Origin: Acidimicrobiales bacterium
GTDB lineage: Bacteria > Actinomycetota > Acidimicrobiia > Acidimicrobiales > RAAP-2
NCBI GenBank assembly: GCA_025362585.1
Contig: JANYFR010000025.1
Span: 1-64,000 of the forward strand
Length of the DNA stretch: 64,000 bases
Direction of reading: 5' to 3'
Position 1 is the stretch's first letter, and every line of letters starts with the position of its first letter. Positions 22,934-40,373 of this stretch are shown here, piece by piece. A program made the position numbers and the translations under genes. The notes under the pieces are model-generated. The model saw nothing but the letters and a program-made list of their open reading frames with translations. It did not search any database and had not been told where the DNA came from.

Positions 22934-23251
22934 CCAGCGCCAACGTCTAGAATCACTGGAGGGCTGCGAGTGGTTCTGTGGTTGCAAGTCGAAGCCAGTC
23001 GCGGGCAAAACGACCCACGTAAGGCGTCTTATTGACGCTGAGCATGGCGCGGTTTAGAAGTAAGTCCTGCCTCGGACCGGTCAGATCGATCGATTCGAGC
23101 GCCGGTGAAGTGTGCGGCTACGCCGCCGGAGAGCCTCGTGCTGCCGGCGACGCGTACGGACACCGCTGCAGGCAAGTGTGGGGTCAAAGACCAGGTCAGC
23201 ACTCGCAGCCCTAGTGAAATGACGAAGAGGACCGGTAGGGTACATCGAGAT
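22934..23251. other. intergenic upstream of secA
   Basis: About 320 bases with no supported gene. No tRNA-like cloverleaf or hibernation-factor gene is seen, although hpf precedes secA in many actinobacteria. TAGAAT at 22948-22953 could be a -10 for a long secA leader; TAGGGT at 23236-23241 is closer to the start codon. Confidence 0.45.
23236..23241 (+). promoter_or_regulatory. possible -10 element of secA
   Basis: TAGGGT lies ten bases before the secA ATG. The distance allows a leader of only a few bases. No good Shine-Dalgarno is present. Confidence 0.35.
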
Positions 23252-34881: not shown

Positions 34882-36837
34882 ATGAGCAGTATCCGTGGTG
34901 GTGTCGAACAGAGCCGTGAGCGCTTGATTGCGCTCGTGCTGCTGCTCCAGCGCGCGTGGCAGTACGGGGCGTTGACCCAGGACCAGATCGTTCGCGAACT
35001 GAAGATCGACGAATACCCGATGTCGGCGAAGGGGCCGCACAAGGTCCTCGCCTATGAGGGCAACGAGGGTGCCGTGCGCCAGAAGTTCGAACGCGACAAG
35101 GCCCGTATCCGCGAGCTCGGTTTCGAGATCGAGACCGAGAGCCACGACGACGGAGGTGTCGGCTACAAGATCGACCCCTCGAGTGGCTACGCGCCACTGA
35201 TCTACTTCACCCCCGACGAGGAACGCGTGGTCAAACTCGCGCTGCGCCTGTGCGGCTTTGGCTCGTCGGGCGCGTTCAGCGTCTTTAACGAAGTCCCCGC
35301 GAGCGACGGCGGTCTCGAGTCCTCCATGTACTTCACGCCGGTCCTGCGCGCTCTGCACCTGCACCGATCACTGACCTTCGATTACCAGTCGGGTGCCAAC
35401 AAGCCCCGGATGGTCGATCCGCTGCTCATTGGCGTCTTTGGCGGCGTCTCGTATCTCGTCGCGCGAGTGATGGGTGCCGAGGAGATCAAGGGCTACCGCT
35501 TCAGCCGCATGACGTCGATGCCCATCGTGCTGCCCGACGGCTTCGAGCCCAGTGAGGAGACTCTCGCCATCGCGAAGGCCTGGCGGCCGGAGTTCACCAA
35601 ATCACCGACGCCGATCGACCTCGTGGTGACGACCAACGAGAACTACGCCGACCTGCTCGTACGCCAGTATCGCGGCGCCCTCGCGGCGAACAAGAAGGAC
35701 GGTCGTGTCGAGGTCGGTCTGAGCCTCGACAGCCCTCGCCAGGCGCTGCGCTTCGTGCTCGACGCCGCGGACCGGGTCCGCCTGGAGTCTCCCAAGTCGT
35801 TGCGGGCCGAACTGGCCGCGTGGCTGAACAACGTGAACCGCGGCAAGGCCCGATCTCTCGACGCGCTGAAGTTCGGTGGTCCAGCGACGAACGACGTCCT
35901 GGGTCAGACCCTGCAACTGCTGCACGCCGTGTACGTCGCTGAAGATGGACTGCGCGTCAGTGAGCTCGCGCACCGATTCGCCCTCGATCCCGCGCACGTA
36001 CGCCTGATAATGGACCGACTGGTCTCGCTCGAGCCCATGGTCGGATCGACCGACGGCACGGGTGCCTTCCCGGCCCACGTGATCAAGGACTGCGACGACT
36101 GGGACGACGAGGCCCACGACGACTCGACCTACCGCGCCGACTTCAGTGACCTGCCCGAGGGTGTCGACGAGCCGTCGCCCTTCATGTGGCGTGATCTGTT
36201 CGAGCTGAACATTGCGTTGCGCGAGGCCTCGCGTGTCTACCGGGACCCCTCGATCTTTTCCGCCATCGAGAAGATCGAAGCGGCGACCAGTTCGTACGTG
36301 CAGGTCGAAATGACGACGAACGAAACGCTGCTCGCCGACGTGACGCGGGCCATCGACGAAGGCCTCCAGATCAAGATCCTCTACACCTCGGGCGTCGACG
36401 AACAACCGGGGACCCGTTCAATCGAGCCGCGCGAGATCAAGGTGCTGAACGGCCACACCTACGTCCGGGCCTACTGCACCACGCGGGTGGCGTGGCGAAC
36501 GTTTCGAGTCGACCGAATCAACGCCATTGTCGCCACCTCGCCCACCACCGAGGAGCGACCCATGGACGCCGTGGCGAACTGGCTCACCCAGGTGGGCGAC
36601 GAGGGTGACGAGGTCATCGTCATCGTGGAGTCGCACCTGCGGTGGCTGTTCGAACCGCTGCCCAACGCTCAGTGGTGCGCCCTGCCCGACGGGCGCCACG
36701 CCGTGAAGTTTCGGGTGAGCGGAGAGCAGTTCCTTGATTACCTAATGCTCCGTGCGGGCGCCGGGGCTGTCGTGGCGACGCCCGCGTTCGCCAAGGCCGG
36801 CCACGATCTCGCCAAGAGGATCGCCAGCCAGCTGTAG
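34882..36837 (+). CDS. PafB-PafC fusion, double WYL-domain transcription regulator
   Basis: A 651-residue protein with two tandem HTH-WYL units. Unit one has an N-terminal winged helix (SRERLIALVLLLQRAWQYG) and a WYL domain around residues 155-240. Unit two has a second helix-turn-helix (LRVSELAHRFALDPAHVRLI) and a WYL domain around residues 490-555, then a C-terminal domain. In mycobacteria PafB and PafC are separate proteins forming an activator of the RecA-independent DNA-damage response; fused forms occur in other actinobacteria. GGAG lies six to nine bases before the ATG, with TACCCT at 34856 as a possible -10. The pafA and proteasome genes that usually neighbour it are absent; a relaxase gene follows. 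Confidence 0.9.
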   Translation: MSSIRGGVEQSRERLIALVLLLQRAWQYGALTQDQIVRELKIDEYPMSAKGPHKVLAYEGNEGAVRQKFERDKARIRELGFEIETESHDDGGVGYKIDPSSGYAPLIYFTPDEERVVKLALRLCGFGSSGAFSVFNEVPASDGGLESSMYFTPVLRALHLHRSLTFDYQSGANKPRMVDPLLIGVFGGVSYLVARVMGAEEIKGYRFSRMTSMPIVLPDGFEPSEETLAIAKAWRPEFTKSPTPIDLVVTTNENYADLLVRQYRGALAANKKDGRVEVGLSLDSPRQALRFVLDAADRVRLESPKSLRAELAAWLNNVNRGKARSLDALKFGGPATNDVLGQTLQLLHAVYVAEDGLRVSELAHRFALDPAHVRLIMDRLVSLEPMVGSTDGTGAFPAHVIKDCDDWDDEAHDDSTYRADFSDLPEGVDEPSPFMWRDLFELNIALREASRVYRDPSIFSAIEKIEAATSSYVQVEMTTNETLLADVTRAIDEGLQIKILYTSGVDEQPGTRSIEPREIKVLNGHTYVRAYCTTRVAWRTFRVDRINAIVATSPTTEERPMDAVANWLTQVGDEGDEVIVIVESHLRWLFEPLPNAQWCALPDGRHAVKFRVSGEQFLDYLMLRAGAGAVVATPAFAKAGHDLAKRIASQL

Positions 36838-36866: not shown

Positions 36867-37955
36867 GTGCTACGACTGTTCGTGCGACGTTCAGACGACG
36901 TTCGCTATTTCACCGACGACCGGGCCCGGGAGATCGACGGCCTGCGTGAGGGGGGCCCGGGGCGATGGCTGCGCGGCGACGGCGACACGGGCGACTGCCG
37001 CCAGGTCGCCCGGGTCCTCCAGACGACCGAGCGCTCGGCGGTCAAGGGCTACGACATCGTCGTGGCGGCTCCTCGTCCGGTCTCGATACTGCTCGCCGTC
37101 GACCCCGCGCATGGTGGGGGCGTCATTGAGGCCCATCGCGCGTCAGTGGCCGCGGCCGTTGACTACCTAGAGCGCCACGCGGTCGTCGTGCGTGATCGCC
37201 GCCACGGCCAGGACCGTGACGGGGCCGGTACGTGGCGCAGCATCGTTGCCTACACCCACGGCGTCAACCGTCACGGCGAGCCGCACTTGCACGACCACGT
37301 GCTGGTCGGCGCCCGTCCCGATGGCGCGGGCACCGTTCTCGACAGTCGCGCGCTCTTCGCGCACGCGACGGCGGCCGATGCCCTCTATCGTGCGTCGCTG
37401 CGGTACGAGCTCGCCGAGCGCACTCCGTGGTCGGCGTGGCGCTCCTTCGAGGGCGTCGAGCATGTTGTCGGTCTCGACGAAGGGTACCGAGTCCTTTGGG
37501 GCGGCCACCACCGCGATCGCGGTCAGAAGCTCCAGTGGGGGAGGGCCGAGACCGTGACGGCGTGGGCGAAGGACCTCGAGCGCTTCGAACCGGAAGGTTT
37601 CCTCGGGGCACCGACGCGGAGTCGGACCAGTCTCGACGAGCATTCGTTCGCCGGCGCCCTCGAGGGTCGCCCCGACGTGGCCCGGCGACACGTTCTCCAA
37701 GCGTGGTCGAACGCCGCGAGCTTTGGTCAGCACCCCCAACGTGCGGACGCCGCACTCGCCGATCTCTTTCCGTCGCTCGGGGGCGCCCGGGGCGTGCGCG
37801 AACCGACCATCTCGGTGCGCGAAGCTCGAATGACGTCACTCGTGCGCGAGCACGGCCCTCGGCCCCTCGAGGATCCCGAACTCGCACGGTGGCGTCAACG
37901 GTCGCGCGAGCGCTCGCTCGACGAATCGCGCGACCGCTCCGAGCGCTCGAGGTAG
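36867..37955 (+). CDS. MobF/TrwC-type relaxase domain protein, no helicase
   Basis: A 362-residue protein with a TrwC-like relaxase fold, which nicks one DNA strand at an origin of transfer and stays attached to it. The block DIVVAAPRPVSILLAVDP matches the family's conserved APKSVS region. The metal-binding triad is H131, H142 and H144 (in YTHGVNRHGEPHLHDHVLV), with the same 11 and 2 spacing as TrwC H150/H161/H163. A single Tyr (Y14 in VRYFTDD) is the candidate nucleophile. The C-terminal helicase of classical MobF proteins is missing. The tail is Arg/Ser-rich and overlaps the convergent coupling-protein gene by 61 bases. GGGGG six bases before GTG 36867 supports the start. Confidence 0.85.
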   Translation: MLRLFVRRSDDVRYFTDDRAREIDGLREGGPGRWLRGDGDTGDCRQVARVLQTTERSAVKGYDIVVAAPRPVSILLAVDPAHGGGVIEAHRASVAAAVDYLERHAVVVRDRRHGQDRDGAGTWRSIVAYTHGVNRHGEPHLHDHVLVGARPDGAGTVLDSRALFAHATAADALYRASLRYELAERTPWSAWRSFEGVEHVVGLDEGYRVLWGGHHRDRGQKLQWGRAETVTAWAKDLERFEPEGFLGAPTRSRTSLDEHSFAGALEGRPDVARRHVLQAWSNAASFGQHPQRADAALADLFPSLGGARGVREPTISVREARMTSLVREHGPRPLEDPELARWRQRSRERSLDESRDRSERSR

Positions 37956-39214
37956 CCGCGGAATCTCACGTCCTCGTGCGCGGGAGTGAGACCGACCCAC
38001 CGCATACGCTTCGCGGCGTCGAGAGCGATGGCGTGGCCCGGGCGCCCCTGGGCCAGTTCGCTGATCGAGGCGCGGTCGCGTTCGACCCAGCTCGTCGAAC
38101 GCCCGGCCTGTCGGCCTCGCGGGCCGTACTGGGTCGTCGGCGTCGGCTCCATGGTCCTTCCCGCCAAGTGTCGGAGCATTTCGAGGGTCGAGCGGTCGGC
38201 AATGCCCCCGAGCACCACGGTCGTGGGGAAGAGCGAGAGAAAGCCGTCCGCGGCGGCGCCCCAACGACTTCGGGCCTGGCTGAGGTCCTGGAGACACGCG
38301 AGGGTGAGGACACCCTGTCCTCCGCCCTCGGAGACGATGGCCGCGAGGCGCGGCAGGGGAGCGACGTTGGCCAGTTCGTCGAGGGCCAGCAAGAGACGTG
38401 CTCCCTGATCGTGACGGTCGTAGGTCGCGTGCACCAGCTCCTCGATGAGGCCCACCACGAGCGGAATCGACACGGCCTGGTGTCGACTGGGCGCCACGAT
38501 GTGGAGTTGGTGGGGACCGGCGAGGAAGGCATCGACGTCGAGGGGAGCCTCACGCGCTGACGCGCGAGCCGCGTCGGTGCGCACGCCGGCAAAGAGCCCC
38601 GCGGCAGTCGACCAGATGGCCGAGCGCTCGCGCTCTTCCGTGGCGAGGACGCCGCGAAGTGACGAGACGGACGGATGGTGTTCACCGTGGCGTTCACTCA
38701 GTTCACGAGTGATGTCGTCGCAGTTTCGCTCATCGACGCGCGTGGCGAGTTGGCCGAGCGACTCGTCGCGCAACGCCGCGGCGTGCAGCATGGGAGCGAC
38801 GAGGGTGCCGGCACGCTCCGTCCAGTGATCGTCGCCACGTTCACCTCGACCCCGTCGCGCGACGTCGATGAGGGTCCGAGAGGCCAACACGGCACCGTCC
38901 CACGAAAGAGACTGTCGAATTGGGGAGTAACCAATTCGGTGTACGCCTGGTGGTGTGGGAACGGTTCCCGATGGATCGAAGAGCAACGTCGCGCCGTCAC
39001 TGCGCGCGTGACTCATCATCGAGACGATGTCGTTTTTCGTCGACGTGACAACGCAAGAACGAGTGGTGATCAGGAGATTCGGAACGACAATGGATGACGT
39101 CTTTCCACTACGACTCGGACCCAACACGAGTGTCGATCGCTCGTGACCACTCATGGCGTCACCGTCATCACCTCGACCGAAGTAGATGCCCGCGCAGTTG
39201 CTCACCGAAGACAT
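37895..39214 (-). CDS. VirD4/TraG-like coupling ATPase lacking membrane anchor
   Basis: A 439-residue ATPase of the type IV coupling protein family, which in conjugation brings relaxase-bound DNA to the secretion channel. Near the N-terminus are IYFGRG and Walker A LGPSRSGKTSSIVVPN; Walker B is LLLALDELANVA, followed by the TraG-like GGGQGVLTLACLQDLSQ and LGGIADRSTLEML. There is no N-terminal transmembrane pair, so it should be cytosolic unless a partner anchors it. The start is ATG 39214 with no Shine-Dalgarno; the motif-containing region excludes much later starts. The tail, rich in Arg, Ser and Asp, is encoded opposite the relaxase tail. No VirB channel genes are in the window. Confidence 0.85.
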   Translation of the reverse strand: MSSVSNCAGIYFGRGDDGDAMSGHERSTLVLGPSRSGKTSSIVVPNLLITTRSCVVTSTKNDIVSMMSHARSDGATLLFDPSGTVPTPPGVHRIGYSPIRQSLSWDGAVLASRTLIDVARRGRGERGDDHWTERAGTLVAPMLHAAALRDESLGQLATRVDERNCDDITRELSERHGEHHPSVSSLRGVLATEERERSAIWSTAAGLFAGVRTDAARASAREAPLDVDAFLAGPHQLHIVAPSRHQAVSIPLVVGLIEELVHATYDRHDQGARLLLALDELANVAPLPRLAAIVSEGGGQGVLTLACLQDLSQARSRWGAAADGFLSLFPTTVVLGGIADRSTLEMLRHLAGRTMEPTPTTQYGPRGRQAGRSTSWVERDRASISELAQGRPGHAIALDAAKRMRWVGLTPAHEDVRFRGYLERSERSRDSSSERSRDR

Positions 39215-39500
39215 CTGTTGTAAAAATCTTGGAAATGCTTGACATTGGTCTTCAAAACGAGTGAACTTTTGATTGTCCTTCTGCGGAGGAGGTGAACGAA
39301 GAGTAAATCGTTGCCCGCAACGATTTACGAAGCGCTTCTTCGCGTAGGACCGTGCACTGCGATCAGTCGCTGCACAGCCGTGAGGCTGGGTGGCACATGA
39401 GCGAGTTCACGTCGGTCAATGCGGTACCCGATTTCGAGAACGCCACGGTGGCGCCCTCGAGGTCCCAAATTGATTCAACGTTGAGTCCCAAGGAGGGAAA
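39215..39500. other. non-coding region with inverted repeats, upstream of the coupling ATPase
   Basis: About 285 relatively AT-rich bases between the coupling ATPase gene and the H1-like gene. It contains the inverted repeat and palindrome listed separately, a purine-rich GGAGGAGG at 39285-39292 with no good start codon after it, and a 37-codon frame at 39397-39510 that overlaps the H1-like start and lacks a binding site. It may hold the ATPase promoter, a small RNA or an origin of transfer; none is proven. Confidence 0.5.
39303..39338. repeat. 26-bp near-palindrome followed by a 10-bp palindrome
   Basis: Arms gtaaatcgttgc (39303-39314) and gcaacgatttac (39317-39328) are perfect complements separated by two bases. 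The perfect palindrome gaagcgcttc follows at 39329-39338. The pair could form a cruciform or RNA hairpin, or bind a dimeric protein. Confidence 0.85.
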
Positions 39501-39761
39501 GTGGCTATAGCCGCGAAGAAGAAGGCTCCGGCCAAGAAGGCCCCAGCTAAGAAGAAGGCTGCTGCCAAGAAGGCTCCGGCGAAGAAGAAGGCCCCTGCGA
39601 AGAAGGCCGCTGCTAAGAAGGTAGCCAAGAAGGCTCCGGCCAAGAAGGCGGCGAAGCGTCCGGCCAAGAAGGCGGCGAAGCGTCCGGCCAAGAAGGCGGC
39701 GAAGCGTCCGGCCAAGAAGGCGGCGAAGCGTCCGGCCAAGAGGGCCGCCGCCAAGAAGTAG
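39501..39761 (+). CDS. histone H1-like Lys/Ala/Pro-rich protein
   Basis: An 86-residue protein made almost only of Lys, Ala, Pro and Arg (units such as APAKK and AAKRP), resembling the tails of histone H1, the chlamydial Hc proteins and actinobacterial HU tails. It probably binds DNA or RNA nonspecifically. There is no folded domain. The GTG start has AAGGAGGG just upstream at 39490-39497, the strongest Shine-Dalgarno in this region, so high expression is likely. Four perfect 24-bp repeats encode its second half, and a strong terminator follows. Confidence 0.88.
   Translation: MAIAAKKKAPAKKAPAKKKAAAKKAPAKKKAPAKKAAAKKVAKKAPAKKAAKRPAKKAAKRPAKKAAKRPAKKAAKRPAKRAAAKK
39639..39734 (+). repeat. four perfect 24-bp tandem repeats
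   Basis: Unit gccaagaaggcggcgaagcg plus tccg, repeated four times without change inside the H1-like gene, encoding AKKAAKRP. Identity at the DNA level implies recent expansion or ongoing homogenisation. Confidence 0.93.
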
Positions 39762-39830: not shown

Positions 39831-40373
39831 TCACTCCAGGTCGCTCGGCTCGTCGACGTCGAAGCGCCAGGGACTATCTCGTACGACCTCACAGTCAATG
39901 TGGAGACGTCGTGCCTCGAACAGGTGCCGACGCGCCGAATCAGGTCCGTAGGCGAAGCGAAAGTCCAGTCCCGTCGGGAGCGTGAGCACGTTGGTCCCGG
40001 TTCCGTGATGGTCGGCCACGATGGTGACGGTCGCGAGCGGGCGGTACTGGCCGAGTCCCTCGGGACGGAGCAGATCGCCGTGGACAATGATGAGGCGGTC
40101 GTAGCGATCGCCGAGCAGCTCGTACGCGCCGGCGACCACCTCGTTGAGTGACGTGCCGTACGATTCGACCACCTCGACGTCGAGGGCACGCGTGAAGGTC
40201 GTCACCTCCTCGCTGTCGCTGAGGACGATTACCTTTCGTGGTGCGCAGGCCGCGAGAACGTGCGACGCCAACGTTCGCGCGAGGGCACTGACGTCCGGGA
40301 CGCCGCCGGCGCGAAGTCGCTCCTTTGCAATCGTGAACGCTTTGATCGGAACCACGAAGGCGTCGTTGGTCAT
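39831..40373 (-). CDS. cofC: CofC, phospholactate/phosphoenolpyruvate guanylyltransferase of F420 synthesis
   Basis: A 180-residue nucleotidyltransferase that couples GTP to 2-phospholactate or phosphoenolpyruvate for coenzyme F420 assembly (FbiD in mycobacteria). It shows VVPIKAFTIAKERLR, VIVLSDSEEV, a D-containing HGDLLRP loop, and the diagnostic DHHGTGTNVLTLP plus FRFAYGPDSARRHLFEA. Its ATG is eight bases after TATCAT, suggesting a leaderless mRNA. It is divergent from rnhB. No other F420 gene is in the window, but its presence indicates F420-dependent redox enzymes in the organism. Confidence 0.93.
   Translation of the reverse strand: MTNDAFVVPIKAFTIAKERLRAGGVPDVSALARTLASHVLAACAPRKVIVLSDSEEVTTFTRALDVEVVESYGTSLNEVVAGAYELLGDRYDRLIIVHGDLLRPEGLGQYRPLATVTIVADHHGTGTNVLTLPTGLDFRFAYGPDSARRHLFEARRLHIDCEVVRDSPWRFDVDEPSDLE

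Follow-up and report, generated by a model that had tools for sequence, protein, structure and literature searches.

The chromosome of an Acidimicrobiales bacterium (GTDB lineage Actinomycetota; Acidimicrobiia; Acidimicrobiales; RAAP-2) encodes, next to a PafBC-type regulator, a short MobF-type relaxase and a VirD4/TraG-type coupling ATPase, here called T4CP1. This gene pair (locus 1) lies in a stretch of 64,000 nucleotides, referred to as the window, which corresponds to positions 1 to 64,000 of contig JANYFR010000025.1 of assembly GCA_025362585.1. The pair very probably belongs to a domesticated cellular system that is inherited vertically on the chromosome throughout its family in the Acidimicrobiales. 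The observations behind this reading are (i) the presence of the pair, (ii) its fixed synteny, (iii) purifying selection, (iv) the catalytic residues, (v) the relaxase fold, and (vi) the near-joint conservation with a second chromosomal locus that encodes channel-type proteins (locus 2). Whether the system is conjugation machinery that was domesticated with its relaxase retained and that moves chromosomal DNA between cells appears to us evenly balanced on the genomic data. In its full form, the explanation that we favor is that this bacterial lineage has an inherited mating system of its own, with a chromosomal relaxase and coupling ATPase beside PafBC and with a channel, that is, Ced-like transfer with a relaxase; we assign it a probability of slightly less than one half (0.47).

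Relaxase and coupling ATPase of locus 1 and their inheritance

A first-pass annotation, made from the sequence, had assigned the two genes to a short MobF-type relaxase without a helicase domain and a convergent VirD4/TraG-like ATPase without an evident membrane anchor, and our searches bear this out. Pfam TrwC matched the relaxase at residues 53 to 185 only (E = 3.8e-25; 89.5 bits; cut-off, 25), and the NCBIfam MobF model gave 77.1 bits, under its cut-off of 100, so that the equivalog score was missed. Orthologs from another family (L025; MobF, 221 against 100) and another genus (L204; TrwC, 222 bits) scored above the window protein. TrwC was the sole Pfam domain of the window relaxase, with no helicase domain, and the same held for the L204 ortholog; a C-terminal helicase domain is usual, but not universal, in MOBF relaxases. 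Tyr14, His131, His142, and His144, the residues singled out in the annotation, are invariant in a 32-row alignment with one row from another family and also in 31 rows that span the family and include that outgroup. Asp63 aligns with Asp81 of F TraI, which we take to have a catalytic role; it is conserved in 90% or more of the 32-row set, with Ala or Gln in its place in two members of the genus.

The AlphaFold2 model of the relaxase, generated with 32 sequences, had a predicted local distance difference test score (pLDDT) of 89.6. All 27 Foldseek matches at an E value of ≤0.001 were MobF relaxases (pKM101 TraI, TrwC, F TraI, and pCU1 TraI). Alignment of model residues 1 to 243 with TrwC residues 1 to 291 (1zm5_A) by VIA-align resulted in a Z score of 21.4 and 2.9 Å over 238 residues, compared to Z scores of about 7.6 for other relaxase classes. 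At the sampled family loci, relaxase lengths were 330 to 514 amino acids, one broken frame aside; starts were chosen by us, and some of the open frames extend further upstream. The ratio of nonsynonymous to synonymous substitution rates (dN/dS) was 0.07 to 0.30 in nine species pairs. Judged from sequence and model, the relaxase is of the MobF type and looks catalytically intact.

T4CP1 matched Pfam T4SS-DNA_transf (E = 6.4e-20; 71.9 bits) and TraG-D_C (E = 7.9e-16; 58.6 bits), both above the cut-offs. Its Walker A motif occupies residues 32 to 39 and is preceded by only 31 residues, which leaves little room for a membrane anchor; no hydrophobic N-terminal stretch was seen when the sequence was judged by eye, without a transmembrane predictor. 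Residues G37 and K38 (Walker A) and D279 and E280 (Walker B) are invariant among the aligned relatives, and dN/dS was 0.04 to 0.19 (nine species pairs).

Matches to both proteins were found in 37 of 37 genomes of the genus, at 41 to 72% identity for the relaxase (window excluded) and 51 to 85% for T4CP1 (some cut by contig ends). In a wider search of the genus, the relaxase profile matched in 96 of 99 genomes, in one of them (G141) only at an E value of 3.9e-6; the three genomes without a match (G134, G137, and G184) are 64 to 70% complete. Across the family, matches were obtained in 165 of 172 genomes, 100 of the 101 good ones, and all 21 genera, and 4 of the 73 family genomes outside the genus had none (G110, G116, G121, and G123). 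Because profile matches in other genera can include relaxases of integrative and conjugative elements (ICEs), the best-match loci of chosen genomes were inspected. The order WYL gene, relaxase, and convergent T4CP1 was present at 36 of 36 loci of genus relatives, and all 37 sampled family loci, which represent 20 of the 21 genera, had the convergent pair. The 3' ends of the two genes overlapped at all 36 relative loci, by 37 to 204 nucleotides (mostly 43 to 55).

Beyond T4CP1, cofC was found in 27 of the 36 genus relatives and at 28 of the 37 family loci, the remaining 9 and 9 being near contig ends. A WYL/Paf gene is the next recognized gene upstream of the relaxase at 36 of the 37 family loci (at the remaining one, the contig breaks off), and tldD, fmdB, moaC, rnhB, and dpp genes flank most genus loci where contigs extend that far. 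In a scan of named genomes, in which 80 loci were kept out of 395 encoding a relative, 76 had the pair convergent within 250 bp; two others stop at T4CP1, and two (L099 and L151) have the same order with broken alignments. The relaxase frame is broken at one family locus (L229), and another (L232) contains unread bases.

The first-pass annotation had proposed to score co-occurrence at the same flanks, and of the two outcomes it had named as contrary to its proposal, orthologs within ICEs and presence in a single strain, neither held. Its suggestion of a domesticated DNA-processing system is supported by these data, as is its view that the locus is not an evident plasmid or ICE. We found the same housekeeping flanks and near-universal presence, with no patchy distribution or varying sites as in an ICE, integrative and mobilizable element, or plasmid, and no integrase was noticed in the open reading frame (ORF) lists of either locus. 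Near-universality and fixed synteny speak against another of its suggestions, a stripped mobilization element.

A number of other origins were discarded. (i) A strain-specific or mobile insertion was rejected in view of the presence in 37 of 37 genus genomes and the fixed synteny, and (ii) a decaying element in view of the low dN/dS (nine pairs). (iii) A recently captured plasmid gene was rejected in view of the distance of the plasmid relatives: among the 10 matches listed, those to the relaxase cover at most 58% (none of 163 records covers 80%), and those to T4CP1 have at most 36% identity (all 1,163 records are below 60%). (iv) A phage origin found no PHROG match for either protein, and (v) antiphage defense found no PADLOC match for either at an E value of 0.001. 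PADLOC models (WYL, mad8, and HerA) were matched by the WYL protein, the VirB4-like protein, and the second VirD4-like protein, which we read as shared domains. In some genomes, ICE-type loci coexist with the domesticated loci, namely, L028 (G057:C188; long MobF) and L036 (G030:C30; longer genes of a type IV secretion system [T4SS]).

Channel-type proteins of locus 2 and a possible transfer route

The T4CP1 search also retrieved, in many genus genomes, a second VirD4-like protein of about 390 amino acids. In the genome of the window (contig C60; L021), its gene is located behind those for a short VirB4-like ATPase, an SCO6880-like protein, a TrbL/SCO6881-like membrane protein, and a VirB2-like pilin. 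The annotated absence of channel genes therefore holds at locus 1, but not genome-wide. Pfam matches above the cut-off were DUF87/AAA_10 (VirB4-like), T4SS-DNA_transf (second VirD4-like), and the pilin-type DUF6112 (30.7 bits against 25), whereas T4SS_pilin and TrbL remained below it. The NCBIfam SCO6880 model (cut-off, 60) gave 54 bits in L037 and 267 bits in L238. For the VirB6-like protein, scores were below threshold, with 15.7 bits against 25.9 for TrbL (L030) and 56.7 bits against 325 for SCO6881 (E = 2e-15; L238).

The VirB4-like gene was detected in 33 of 37 genus genomes and, in the family, in 168 of 172 genomes at an E value of ≤1e-3 and 140 of 172 at ≤1e-85 (hand count). As far as contigs allow, 31 genus sites, all chosen for carrying this gene, have the cluster bordered by serS and genes for a senX3/regX3-like two-component system at one end and by a ROK-family gene at the opposite end (names from Pfam). 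Another 20 sites were picked from strong matches, 18 of them from 17 other genera and 2 from the genus of the window; they contained the VirB4-like gene (20), the second VirD4-like gene (19), the pilin gene (18), senX (17), and the ROK gene (16). At one site (L243), the upstream genes were not recognized. In several lineages (L034, L035, and L238), the second VirD4-like gene is followed by a gene that looks cytochrome-P450-like by eye.

Pairwise distances of the relaxase correlated with those of the unlinked serS (r = 0.69) and the linked tldD (r = 0.64), the range with housekeeping genes being 0.64 to 0.74, and the reference correlation between tldD and serS was 0.76. The relaxase thus tracks housekeeping genes about as closely as they track each other, which fits vertical descent. 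Its distances correlated more closely with those of the VirB4-like protein (r = 0.90) than with those of the housekeeping genes. After removal of housekeeping distances (16 genomes), partial correlations between the two loci were 0.68 to 0.82, compared to −0.17 to 0.53 for housekeeping pairs and 0.49 for relaxase and T4CP1; several partial correlations of transfer genes with regX or moaC reach 0.4 to 0.6. We consider the correlation between the loci supportive, not conclusive. With channel parts at locus 2 and correlated distances of both loci, the earlier notion of a minimal two-gene system is probably not correct.

A transfer route can be proposed from these parts, with locus 1 providing the relaxase and coupling ATPase beside PafBC and locus 2 the channel. 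The relaxase would nick a chromosomal origin of transfer (oriT) via Tyr14, with the metal held by His131, His142, and His144, and T4CP1 would pass the relaxase-bound single strand to the locus 2 channel. Unwinding might be carried out by a cellular helicase, the fused helicase presumably having been lost, and the VirB4-like protein would translocate the DNA together with the SCO6880-like protein, the VirB6-like pore, and the pilin. As a result, kin cells would exchange chromosomal DNA for use in recombinational repair, perhaps following DNA damage.

Neighborhood and origin of locus 1

The features of locus 1 and its surroundings are listed in Table 1. Convergence and the shared 3' ends of the pair follow from the ORF list of the window. 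Pfam and NCBIfam identified a PafBC-type WYL protein, MoaC, TldD/PmbA, CofC, and RNase HII at the flanks; of the annotated flanks, PafBC, cofC, and rnhB were thus recognized, and the H1-like match was weak. The stop of the PafBC gene is 29 bp from the relaxase start, and the two genes probably form one operon. The charged tails encoded by the overlap are possibly a translocation signal.

Table 1. Features of locus 1 and adjacent genes in the window
Feature	Position	Strand	Remarks
PafBC-type double-WYL transcription regulator, PafB-PafC fusion type	34882..36837	+	651 aa; WYL, E 3.8e-25 (2 stretches); WCX, E 9e-7
MobF-type relaxase, transesterase domain only	36867..37955	+	362 aa; GTG start; Arg/Ser-rich C-terminal tail
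Antisense overlap of relaxase and T4CP1 3' ends	37895..37955		61 bp; encodes R/S/E/D-rich tails of both proteins
VirD4/TraG-type coupling ATPase (T4CP1)	37895..39214	-	439 aa; ATG start
Structured RNA element	39226..39504	+	TTGACA box (promoter-like), 4 covarying helices, Shine-Dalgarno sequence
Lysine/alanine-rich H1-like ORF, neighboring gene	39501..39761	+	hist_H1_lk_Burk match weak (17.8 bits; cut-off, 80)
cofC, housekeeping flank marking the fixed site	39831..40373	-	CofC, E 1.4e-12

PafBC is usually found in the neighborhood of proteasome genes, according to the available part of the source (PMC8223512), whereas in the window and at loci L197 to L236 it immediately precedes the relaxase. 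In the genus, there is one copy beside the relaxase, split by contig ends in some genomes, and an extra partial copy in G012. The pafB and pafC genes are separate at the same place in other genera and fused in the genus of the window, and the outgroup copy matches Pfam HTH_PafC. PafBC adjoins the relaxase in the family of the window and in two others (f21 and f9); among five PafBC loci of other families, proteasome genes are adjacent in three (L159, L164, and L165) but not in two (L157 and L158). Since PafBC activates DNA damage genes in mycobacteria, as stated in the accessible parts of two studies (PMC6789036 and PMC5656591), control by DNA damage is an attractive idea. That PafBC switches the transfer machine on is conceivable from the gene order, and we regard it as doubtful rather than probable.

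Strong T4CP1 matches (E < 1e-100) occurred in 12 families of the order; class-wide, at an E value of ≤1e-60, 68 of 395 genomes matched and 327 did not. For 29 genomes, chosen mostly from the matching ones, we inspected the position of both genes. In 7 of them, relaxase and T4CP1 were convergent on one contig; the other 22 have them on separate contigs, except for G208, a single contig of 2.2 Mb, in which a relaxase frame of 684 amino acids is 28 kb from T4CP1. The relaxase frames convergent to T4CP1 measured 660 to 1,070 amino acids in families f22 and f31 and were short in f21 and f40 (436 and 481 amino acids) and in f1. The G057 relaxase (f22; 1,063 amino acids) has TrwC and helicase-type AAA_30 domains and is encoded in the same stretch as cofC. 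A long frame with a helicase-type domain convergent to T4CP1 agrees with a loss of the helicase that followed domestication, and from these sequences it appears likely that an ancient relaxase-helicase and its coupling protein became fixed near cofC and that the helicase part was lost later. Between the long relaxase and T4CP1 of G057 (L022, 10361 to 11238), a pair resembling an Xre/RES toxin-antitoxin system was seen by eye.

The structured RNA element, 279 nucleotides long, is situated between T4CP1 and the H1-like ORF, its Shine-Dalgarno sequence being directly before the latter. It is conserved genus-wide and single copy in the genome of the window. Double changes were found at 27 of 38 base pairs, 0 of 500 shuffles reached any of the measures, and the fold had a z score of −3.9. 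No Rfam family matched. Among other genera, only g44 has a clear copy (L198; 56 bits); the remaining matches are short and partial. Its covariation with many G-U pairs points to an RNA leader, so that a role as oriT was rejected; it is probably the 5' leader of the H1-like gene. A raiA RNA (RF03072) is present elsewhere in the window, at positions 22964 to 23208 of the plus strand (149.5 bits; gathering score, 101.3).

Alternative explanations and related systems

Several observations weigh against an inherited mating system. (i) Over the same 16 genomes, the partial correlation between T4CP1 and the linked housekeeping gene moaC was 0.75, so that the rate correlation is not specific. (ii) G089, a genome of four contigs that is 91% complete, has an intact locus 1 (L220) and no VirB4 match. 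Its senX flank is deep inside a contig, and the channel therefore seems truly absent there, which weakens a strict coupling of the two loci. G095 also has no VirB4 match, and in additional genomes the matches are weak. Contig ends account for the misses in G169 and G074, in which senX is 550 and 87 bases from the contig start, on the side of the cluster; within the genus, the G004 contig begins inside the SCO6880-like gene beside senX, the G001 contig ends near senX, and G026 and G027 are also without a senX ortholog. (iii) The second VirD4-like gene is missing between the VirB4-like and ROK genes in three members of the genus (G022, G019, and G176), all of which retain T4CP1; the loci concerned are L255, L188, and L192. 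(iv) The VirB6-like protein has no Pfam match in L037 or L238, only the subthreshold TrbL and SCO6881 scores, and the single-sequence model of the SCO6880-like protein was unusable (pLDDT, 45). (v) VirB8 and a cell wall hydrolase were not identified, no genome-wide search for either having been made. (vi) No PafBC box was found upstream of T4CP1 in 37 loci, the region that our single motif scan, made with one form of the box, covered. (vii) In Streptomyces, VirB4-, SCO6880-, and SCO6881-like genes (Cmd) act in sporulation and not in plasmid transfer, according to the available part of the report (PMC2782261).

The last point leads to the strongest competitor, a Cmd-like T4SS complex for chromosome segregation or differentiation, in which the target of relaxase and T4CP1 would be the chromosome of the same cell, with no DNA passing to another. 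The Streptomyces cmdABCDEF genes (SCO6878 to SCO6881) are likewise chromosomal and shared by several species, CmdC, CmdD, and the VirB4-like CmdB affect sporulation and segregation (PMC2782261), and locus 2 matches SCO6880 and, below the cut-off, SCO6881. The available text of that report, which concerns another host group and a sporulation and segregation phenotype, makes no mention of a relaxase, whereas an intact-looking relaxase is kept family-wide here; we therefore consider this explanation unlikely.

Still less probable is a Ced-like DNA import machine, in which the relaxase would process the DNA either in the donor or once it has entered the cell. The accessible portion of the report on Ced and Ted describes these systems as domesticated and chromosomal, linked to DNA damage, without relaxases, and not reported in other organisms, and states that Ced imports DNA for repair (Beltran 2023, PMC9905601); newer Ced parts have been described since, as seen in the available part of a further report (PMC11868833). 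The system analyzed here shares with Ced/Ted its chromosomal location, lineage-wide occurrence, and a similar minimal channel of VirB2- and VirB4-like proteins (here not in every genome) with, as a candidate, a VirB6-like pore. It differs in the bacterial host and in the retention of a relaxase and VirD4-type coupling ATPases, and a relaxase-coupling ATPase pair points to export rather than import. The DNA damage link, shown for Ced/Ted, is here only suggested by the adjacency of PafBC, and at the sequence level a CedD profile gave a weak match (E = 0.0015; 17 bits; cut-off, 600).

We give marginally less credit to an intracellular nickase for repair or rolling-circle replication, with T4CP1 and locus 2 serving another purpose. 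The PafBC neighbor, the lack of a helicase domain, and G089, which keeps locus 1 without a VirB4 match, would fit such an enzyme, but a coupling ATPase partner is present at every locus examined and rates correlate with those of the channel locus. Resident helper machinery that is kept or exploited by mobile elements and not by the cell, that is, a fixed ancient element, is the least probable alternative, since, although ICE-type loci (L036 and L028) with a long MobF or with channel genes are present in certain members of the genus and in relatives, we see two unlinked loci at fixed housekeeping flanks with a vertical pattern, no integrase noticed, and little patchiness.

An inherited mating system would have its closest molecular counterparts in the TrwC/TraI and VirD4/TrwB proteins of plasmids and ICEs, with which the pair shares the fold, the catalytic Tyr, the three-His cluster, and a Walker ATPase with a TraM-recognition-type domain; unlike them, it has no fused helicase, no evident anchor, and a fixed chromosomal locus. 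In Patescibacteria, a chromosomal T4SS of the monoderm type is widespread, its VirD4-like gene is mostly away from virB4, as here, the relaxase is mostly absent, unlike here, and a nonconjugative function has been proposed, as far as the available part of the source goes (PMC12102498). The accessible part of a survey reports no actinomycete-type integrative and conjugative elements (AICEs) in the subclass (PMC3218068).

Our searches of open-access literature, judged by titles and abstract openings, found no publication on such a system in the Acidimicrobiales. Bacterial conjugation genes are generally ascribed to mobile elements, and, to our knowledge, this would be the first domesticated conjugation machinery in bacteria with its relaxase kept. 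If our interpretation is correct, regulated bacterial sex becomes directly testable in a family-wide case with an intact-looking relaxase, a small monoderm channel becomes available for study, and the system could shed light on how these actinobacteria recombine.

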